This document shows positions 50,896 through 51,884 of a stretch of DNA of 64,000 nt, piece by piece. The position numbers and the translations under genes are program-made. The DNA lies in NCBI GenBank assembly GCA_030447305.1, contig JAUJPC010000001.1, positions 62,001 to 126,000 of the forward strand, read 5' to 3'. Numbering within the stretch: position 1 is the first letter of the stretch; each line of letters starts with the position of its first letter. Source of the DNA: Actinomycetota bacterium (GTDB lineage Bacteria; Actinomycetota; CADDZG01; JAHWKV01). The notes beneath the pieces were generated by a model that ran no database searches, was not told where the DNA came from, and worked only from the letters and a program-made list of their open reading frames with translations.

Positions 50896-51366
50896 ATGGC
50901 CACCAAGAAGAAGAAGGCGACCGCCGGGGCCATCTCCAACCCCAAGGCCCGGCACGACTACACCATCCTCGACTCCTTCGAGGCCGGTATCGTGCTGACC
51001 GGCAGTGAGATCAAGTCGATCCGTCAAGGCAAGGCGTCCCTGAGGGAGGCTTTTGCGGTGATTCGGGACAACGAGGTGTGGCTCATATCGATGCACATAG
51101 CTCCTTACGAGAACGCCGGCTACTCGCAGCACGAGCCGCTGCGAAAGCGCAAGCTCCTGTTGCACCGCAAGGAGATCGAGACTCTGATCGGAAAGACGAA
51201 GCAGCAGGGTCTGACTCTCGTTCCCCTGCGGCTGTACTTTACGCACGGGCTGGCCAAGATCGAGCTGGGTCTTGCCAAGGGTAAGAAGACCTACGACAAG
51301 CGTGAGGACCTGAAGGCCAAGGACGCCAAGATGCAGGTGGACCGAATGATGGGGCGGCGGCGCTAA
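50896..51366 (+). CDS. smpB: SsrA-binding protein SmpB, 156 aa
   Basis: Binds tmRNA and brings it to stalled ribosomes. Hallmarks are NPKARHDYTILDSFEAGIVL split around TGSEIKSIRQGKASL, HIAPYENAG, RKRKLLLHRKEI, and the basic C-terminal helix KGKKTYDKREDLK. Length is normal. It lies 74 bases before the tmRNA gene, the usual smpB-ssrA pairing. Confidence 0.96.
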   Translation: MATKKKKATAGAISNPKARHDYTILDSFEAGIVLTGSEIKSIRQGKASLREAFAVIRDNEVWLISMHIAPYENAGYSQHEPLRKRKLLLHRKEIETLIGKTKQQGLTLVPLRLYFTHGLAKIELGLAKGKKTYDKREDLKAKDAKMQVDRMMGRRR

Positions 51367-51440: not shown

Positions 51441-51796
51441 GGGGACGATTTGGTTTCGAAGCCGGTTGTTCTGCTTGGAGGAAGCGGGTCGAGGTCCGGG
51501 GGCCTCGTTAAAAAGCCCGGACAATTAACTGAAACGTCGCTGCTTAAAGCGAGTTCCCGTCTAATGAAAGACGGGCGTCTCTACCGGTAGGGTCTGCGGA
51601 TCGGATAGAGGCGTCATGCAGCAGACTGGCTCCAGTCACGCCCCGTCGGGTGGCGTGCGGAGTGAGATCAATTCCCGACTGGGCACCGGCGAGCCTGCCT
51701 AGGGCGAACGCTGGGCTGAGATAAGAATCTAGGCTACGCCCGTAGATGCCCCAGGTGGAAGCTGTGCTCACGGGGGTTCGAATCCCCCCGTCTCCA
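51441..51796 (+). ncRNA. ssrA: Transfer-messenger RNA (tmRNA), one-piece
   Basis: The 5' end GGGGACG pairs with CGTCTCC at the 3' end (one G-U), with a tRNA-like T-arm GGGGGTTCGAATCCCCCC and discriminator A at 51,796; CCA is not encoded. GTTTCGA near the 5' end and pseudoknot 1 (GTCCGGG/CCCGGAC) are present. The tag region after 51,522 is peculiar: no ordinary ALAA-ending frame is seen. A frame ending GTC-GCT-GCT-TAA (51,536-51,547) has a TGA five codons before the stop, and the frame set by the conserved CAATTAA-type upstream element reads GAA-ACG-TCG and onward for 19 codons without an LAA end. Confidence 0.93.
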
Positions 51797-51884
51797 AGAG
51801 AGCTTTGGATTCCAGAGCTTTGTTGGAGACGGCGCAAGTCGCCCGCTGCTGGGTTTGTCGCCGGTTAGGGGGTCGAGGTATTCA

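Follow-up and report, generated by a model that had tools for sequence, protein, structure and literature searches.

A complete one-piece tmRNA gene in an uncultured actinomycetote that probably encodes a three-codon tag

The window, a 64,000-nucleotide stretch of DNA from an uncultured member of the Actinomycetota, carries a complete one-piece tmRNA gene (ssrA) at 51441-51796 on the forward strand, a short distance downstream of smpB. The gene itself, its partner genes, its conservation and its predicted structure together make it highly probable that this one-piece tmRNA is functional, with a tag of three codons. It is equally probable that this tag is Val-Ala-Ala, added after the tmRNA's own alanine to give -A-VAA. 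Judged from the sequences of related organisms, the short tag found across the order looks like a real minimal tag, neither a broken gene nor a sequencing error. The features of the locus are as follows.

50896..51366, + strand: smpB, encoding the SsrA-binding protein SmpB, 156 aa (NF003843 211.9 bits, TIGR00086 192.7 bits, both over cut-off)
51441..51796, + strand: ssrA, one-piece tmRNA gene running from G1 to A73 without an encoded CCA (full-length RF00023 match, 122.2 bits)
51490..51522, + strand: pseudoknot 1 (PK1), CGAGG 51490-51494 with CCTCG 51503-51507 and TCCGGG 51495-51500 with CCCGGA 51516-51521 (sequence reading, Rfam alignment and stem search)
51523..51535, + strand: putative upstream, frame-setting element AATTAACTGAAAC, with A 51532 at -4 relative to the resume codon (from the context matrix and the distance to PK1)
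51536..51547, + strand: tag frame GTC GCT GCT TAA, Val-Ala-Ala-stop (shared by eight tmRNAs of the order, which differ only at the last wobble base)
51537..51552, + strand: predicted hairpin of the tag, TCGCT-GCTTAA-AGCGA, whose loop contains the stop codon (from folding and from comparing relatives)
51556..51575, + strand: predicted second hairpin CCCGTCT-AATGAA-AGACGGG, before pseudoknot 2 (PK2), with a covarying stem (folding and comparison of relatives)
51771..51796, + strand: tRNA-like domain, comprising T-arm, 3' acceptor strand and discriminator A, with the G3-U70 pair retained

The RF00023 covariance model matched positions 51441-51797 over its full length (122.2 bits against a cut-off of 47, E 9e-49, model positions 1-374), and this was the sole match over the cut-off in the window genome (2.88 Mb, seven contigs). 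The model search, a check proposed in the earlier note, thus recovered a full-length gene, and the coordinates given there and the description of the tRNA-like domain, PK1 and T-arm as well preserved were right. A permuted tmRNA was rejected, as RF04321 scored 22.3 bits against a gathering threshold of 47 and matched the 3' end only. The tRNA-like domain has the features of alanine identity, with acceptor strands GGGGACG/CGTCTCC that keep G3-U70, the T-arm GGTTCGAATCC, and A73 at 51796, where the gene-encoded tRNA part ends; as the identity pair is kept in the sequence, the tmRNA product should end in -A-VAA. ARAGORN, also proposed as a check, gave a divided answer: at default settings it found no tmRNA in the window, nor in any tested short-tag relative of the class, and at relaxed settings it reported the window tmRNA with a 19-codon tag, ETSLLKASSRLMKDGRLYR. 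An imperfect inverted repeat at 51779-51841 (GTCTCCAA...TTGGAGAC; 31-nt arms, 77% complementary) spans the tmRNA 3' end and trailer, and is possibly a processing hairpin or terminator, or an insertion trace.

No frame of 8-35 codons ending in ALAA was found in the tag region, as had been stated from the sequence beforehand, and the only tag-like frame in the window tmRNA was GTC GCT GCT TAA (codons 51536-51544, stop TAA 51545-51547), with the TGA previously reported in the same frame at 51530-51532. This frame ends in Ala-Ala and a stop and has an A (51532) at -4, as expected of a tmRNA; at three codons it falls outside the usual tag length, which is typical of RF00023 members and not defining. 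The earlier suggestion of a tag of about four codons was sound as to its brevity, and probably one codon too long in its count, because the frame-setting A at -4 indicates GTC and not the preceding AAC.

The class comprised 24 genomes, of which the tag region was readable in 19, the gene being cut by contig ends or not found in the other five. GTC GCT GCN TAA was present in all eight readable tmRNAs of the window's order (five genera, two families), so that the proposed comparison with ssrA of sister genomes came out uniformly, and no longer tag was found among these eight. In a sister family of the same class, seven members carried GCC GCT GCN TAA (Ala-Ala-Ala-stop), whilst four others had ordinary tags of 9-10 aa (ADSNEFAVAA, ADSNEYALAA, ANEPVAVAA and, at a contig end, the partial ADSNEYALA). 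Within each group only the wobble base of the last alanine varied among the 12 bases of the tag frame (T, C or A in the order; G or T in the sister family). The occurrence of GYC-GCT-GCN-TAA at the tag site is, on this sequence comparison, not a matter of chance, because it was kept in 15 of 15 short-tag tmRNAs of the class. Single-base indels among relatives began right after the tag TAA, and the non-VAA frames of the order's eight tmRNAs gave unrelated peptides of 0-53 codons. Frames ending in the loop of the second hairpin (KRRCLKRVPV*, PLRKARLPSLK* and others, some of ordinary length) were likewise discarded, as 1-nt indels immediately behind the TAA shift them from one relative to the next. 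The relatives included metagenome-assembled genomes labelled Actinomycetota, Actinobacteria or Actinomycetes (JAHWKU, JAHWKV, JAJCYE, JAJCYF and JAOPZY; sister family WHTI, WHSQ, JACCXF, JAUJPD and JAENWQ); that all those with known records are metagenome assemblies counts against the Val-Ala-Ala reading.

Other elements were observed near the tmRNA genes of the class. Extra copies of the tmRNA 3' end (24-29 nt, 96-100% identical; among them L170 1501-1529) were present in the sister family. In G015 and G008 they follow closely behind the gene (in the latter L172 and L174, G008:C7 66568-66591 and 66660-66683), and in G018 they stand in tandem on one contig (L169, L171 and L173; G018:C123 24-52, 99-127 and 211-239); these look like attachment-site duplications of integrating elements. 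A c-di-GMP-II-GAG riboswitch match (L075 4327-4410, minus strand, 44.2 bits, cut-off 40) lies on the strand opposite to the sister genus's tmRNA gene and ends 183 bp before it.

The site at which translation resumes was assessed with a position-specific matrix built on the 10 bases that precede the resume codon in 31 ordinary tmRNAs of the phylum. Position -4 was A in all 31, and -1 was always a pyrimidine; in E. coli tmRNA, the equivalent A86 acts as a ruler that sets the frame four bases downstream, and U85 tolerates change to G or C (PMC2481249). In a sister genus within the order (G004, L042/L063), AAAATAACT is directly followed by GTC GCT GCA TAA; no base is left over and GTC scores best (11.4 bits), a canonical context that establishes VAA as the tag of this genus. 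Elsewhere in the order, GAAAC (TAAAC in G007) separates a canonical-looking element from GTC, which then retains A at both -4 and -3 and C at -1, with G (or T) at -5. Among the sister-family AAA tags, AACT or ACCT precedes GCC GCT GCN TAA in the seven members, and GCC, the commonest resume codon among the phylum's ordinary tmRNAs, is the best site in five of seven and second in two with ACCT (3.1 versus 3.8 bits). The distance from PK1 to GTC is 13 nt in the window and 12-15 nt in the order, as against mostly 11-13 nt in ordinary tmRNAs, these spacings coming from a simple stem finder that misassigned a few rows.

Three points weigh against resumption at GTC: in the window the context score is higher for GAA 51531 (8.5 bits) than for GTC (2.7 bits), most of the order has a second good context 5-6 bases upstream, and a valine codon is an unusual resume codon. 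This second, canonical-looking context (G000-G003 and G005-G007; 51530-51531 in the window) leads to a TGA or TAA stop in most members, and is perhaps a remnant of an ancestral resume site. On the sequences compared we nevertheless infer that GTC is the resume site, and that the VAA tag would be made in vivo.

Were translation to resume at GAA 51531, as the earlier note had predicted from the upstream element, the tmRNA would rescue ribosomes with an atypical 19-codon tag that lacks an Ala-Ala end. The frame was confirmed, its context score is the highest of any single site in the window, and relaxed ARAGORN reports this tag. As a resume site, however, GAA is very unlikely, since its frame meets an immediate stop in G007 and G004, yields peptides of seven codons in G006 and of 10 in G005 whose ends are unrelated, would place the site just 8 nt from PK1, and leaves the conserved GCNTAA of the loop without explanation. 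The same upstream element puts TGA (G001, G002, G003 and G005) or TAA (G007) in the resume position in most of the order, such that the tmRNA would add nothing beyond its own alanine and release the ribosome. The best context does not, however, indicate a stop in G000 (GAA), G006 (CGA) or G004 (GTC), and conservation of the VAA codons would then have no reason, which leaves a tag of zero codons very unlikely.

A slimmer chance attaches to a tag of four to five codons, NVAA in the window and RNVAA or LNVAA in other genera: AAC does lie in frame between TGA and GTC, but it lacks the A at -4 that all 31 ordinary tmRNAs possess, and G004 has no AAC codon. That the gene is decayed or mis-assembled, with one base lost from a true sequence having a conventional tag, was proposed in the earlier note and would account for a tag length so far outside the usual. 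We consider this hardly credible, as the same tag occurs in eight independent genomes of the order, alongside covarying hairpins and an intact SmpB. Independently assembled genomes from the same genus, from further genera and from a second family of the order share the tag and none has a longer one, which rules out both the lost-base and pseudogene readings; nor does the label "degenerate" suit a conserved tag with covarying hairpins.

In the predicted structure, the Val-Ala-Ala codons make up the 5' arm of a hairpin whose loop carries the stop codon, a second hairpin follows, and this segment folds better than shuffled sequences (z = -3.5). The Rfam RF00023 consensus also has UAA in the loop of a hairpin preceding PK2. 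The second stem was fully paired throughout the order, in the forms CCCGTCT/AGACGGG, CCCGCC/GGCGGG, CCCGCCG/CGGCGGG and CCCACCT/AGGTGGG. Where the motif search worked, the resume codon lay 56-58 nt from the CTGYG motif in PK2 in short-tag members, versus 61-64 nt in two long-tag members, so that the loss of about seven codons (21 nt) shortened this interval by only 3-8 nt. The second hairpin keeps the distance to PK2 nearly constant in the class and, in the predicted structure, takes up most of the room that those codons left; it would appear that the tag was trimmed from its 5' side up to the hairpin and the vacated space refilled.

We propose that alanyl-tmRNA and SmpB would enter the stalled ribosome, the nascent chain passing onto the tmRNA's alanine, whereupon the ribosome would resume at GTC (51536), add Val-Ala-Ala and stop at TAA (51545). 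The rescued protein would end in -Ala-Val-Ala-Ala, a putative minimal C-terminal degron for ClpXP. Shortening from the 5' side would have left the resume codon abutting the hairpin that holds the last codons and the stop, with the second hairpin filling most of the vacated space before PK2. The partner genes are in place: the 3' end of smpB lies 74 bp upstream of ssrA, SmpB was found in 22 of 24 class genomes, and ClpX and ClpP in all 18 of good quality. ClpX of the window genome keeps the pore-1 GYVG, pore-2 T-R-D-V and RKH motifs. In E. coli, residues of these motifs make contact with the ssrA tag, and no part of that tag matters more than its C-terminal Ala-Ala (PMC7652416); by analogy, proteins ending in -AVAA would be degraded by ClpXP. 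No RqcH-type NFACT_N (PF05833) protein scored over cut-off in any of the 24 class genomes or in 61 sampled phylum relatives. Loss of RqcH was rejected as the cause of shortening, as it is equally absent from long-tag relatives and the sampled phylum, and is present in Fermentibacterota.

In the SmpB tree the VAA order formed one clade (100/99), whilst the branching of AAA and long-tag members of the sister family was unsettled, a single AAA clade not being rejected (p-AU 0.41). The simplest account would be at least two shortenings within the class, because four sister-family members, like the ordinary tmRNAs from other parts of the phylum, have long tags. It is conceivable, at somewhat less than even chances, that a bare alanine-rich C-terminus arose separately in Fermentibacterota (AA), the actinobacterial order (VAA) and the sister family (AAA), each time together with a tag hairpin whose loop holds the stop, and with a second hairpin. 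If so, tmRNA would have been selected to deliver only the end that ClpX needs, akin to an RqcH-like alanine tail written from a template. The window tmRNA suggests how little tag trans-translation and ClpXP may need in nature, namely three codons with the resume codon set against the stop-holding hairpin, and short-tag tmRNAs are natural systems in which frame selection on tmRNA and minimal degrons can be tested. ARAGORN can miss the tmRNA across much of the class owing to tag length, so a reported absence of tmRNA, or of its tag, should be read with caution.

A survey for tags no longer than about seven codons covered one genome for each of 84,980 species, with a pattern that needs a CGAGG/CCTCG PK1 and may miss other lineages. 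Of 62 matching stretches, 10 came from the window's class, approximately 31 were Fermentibacterota tmRNAs with GCC GCN TAA (RF00023 136-168 bits in those tested; the +1 frame often PHN*, PRK* or PHK*), and the remainder were mostly not tmRNAs. Eight pattern matches in viral contigs were set aside, none having tmRNA 5' or 3' motifs. A Woeseiaceae metagenome-assembled genome, a single assembly, harboured a tmRNA (L096 4671-5017, minus strand; RF00023 192.9 bits) missed by default ARAGORN, in which TAGAC precedes AAC TAC GCA CTA GCT GCC TAA, a possible six-codon tag NYALAA.

Ultra-short-tag tmRNAs as such are already known, a precedent that speaks for the three-codon reading: Nawrocki, Petrov and Williams (2025, PMC11915505) describe 25 sequences with two-residue Ala-Ala tags, especially in Fermentibacterota, and 10 aa as the most frequent tag length. 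The results, discussion and searchable text of that paper make no mention of three-residue tags or of the window's lineage, and relative to that text the three-codon VAA and AAA tags of uncultured Actinomycetota are new. The window tmRNA resembles those of Fermentibacterota in its ultra-short tag ending in alanine codons, complete body, stop in the tag-hairpin loop and second hairpin before PK2. The tag there, in an unrelated phylum, is of exactly two alanine codons (GCC GCN), mostly in an AAYAAYT-type context, whereas the window's order has VAA, with valine first and a longer upstream element, and the sister family AAA. An RqcH-type NFACT_N protein was found in eight of eight Fermentibacterota genomes, but is absent from the window's class. 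With the standard one-piece tmRNA (RF00023, the E. coli ANDENYALAA type) the window tmRNA shares the tRNA-like ends, PK1, a whole-model match, SmpB, the Ala-Ala-stop end and A at -4, and differs in having a tag of three codons instead of the usual 10 aa. Its product would also resemble that of alanine tailing by RqcH in Bacillus subtilis (reviewed in PMC8138137), a short alanine-rich C-terminal tail of the kind read by ClpXP; unlike RqcH tailing, the tail would be written from the tmRNA template, in a class where the absence of NFACT_N is not special to short-tag members.
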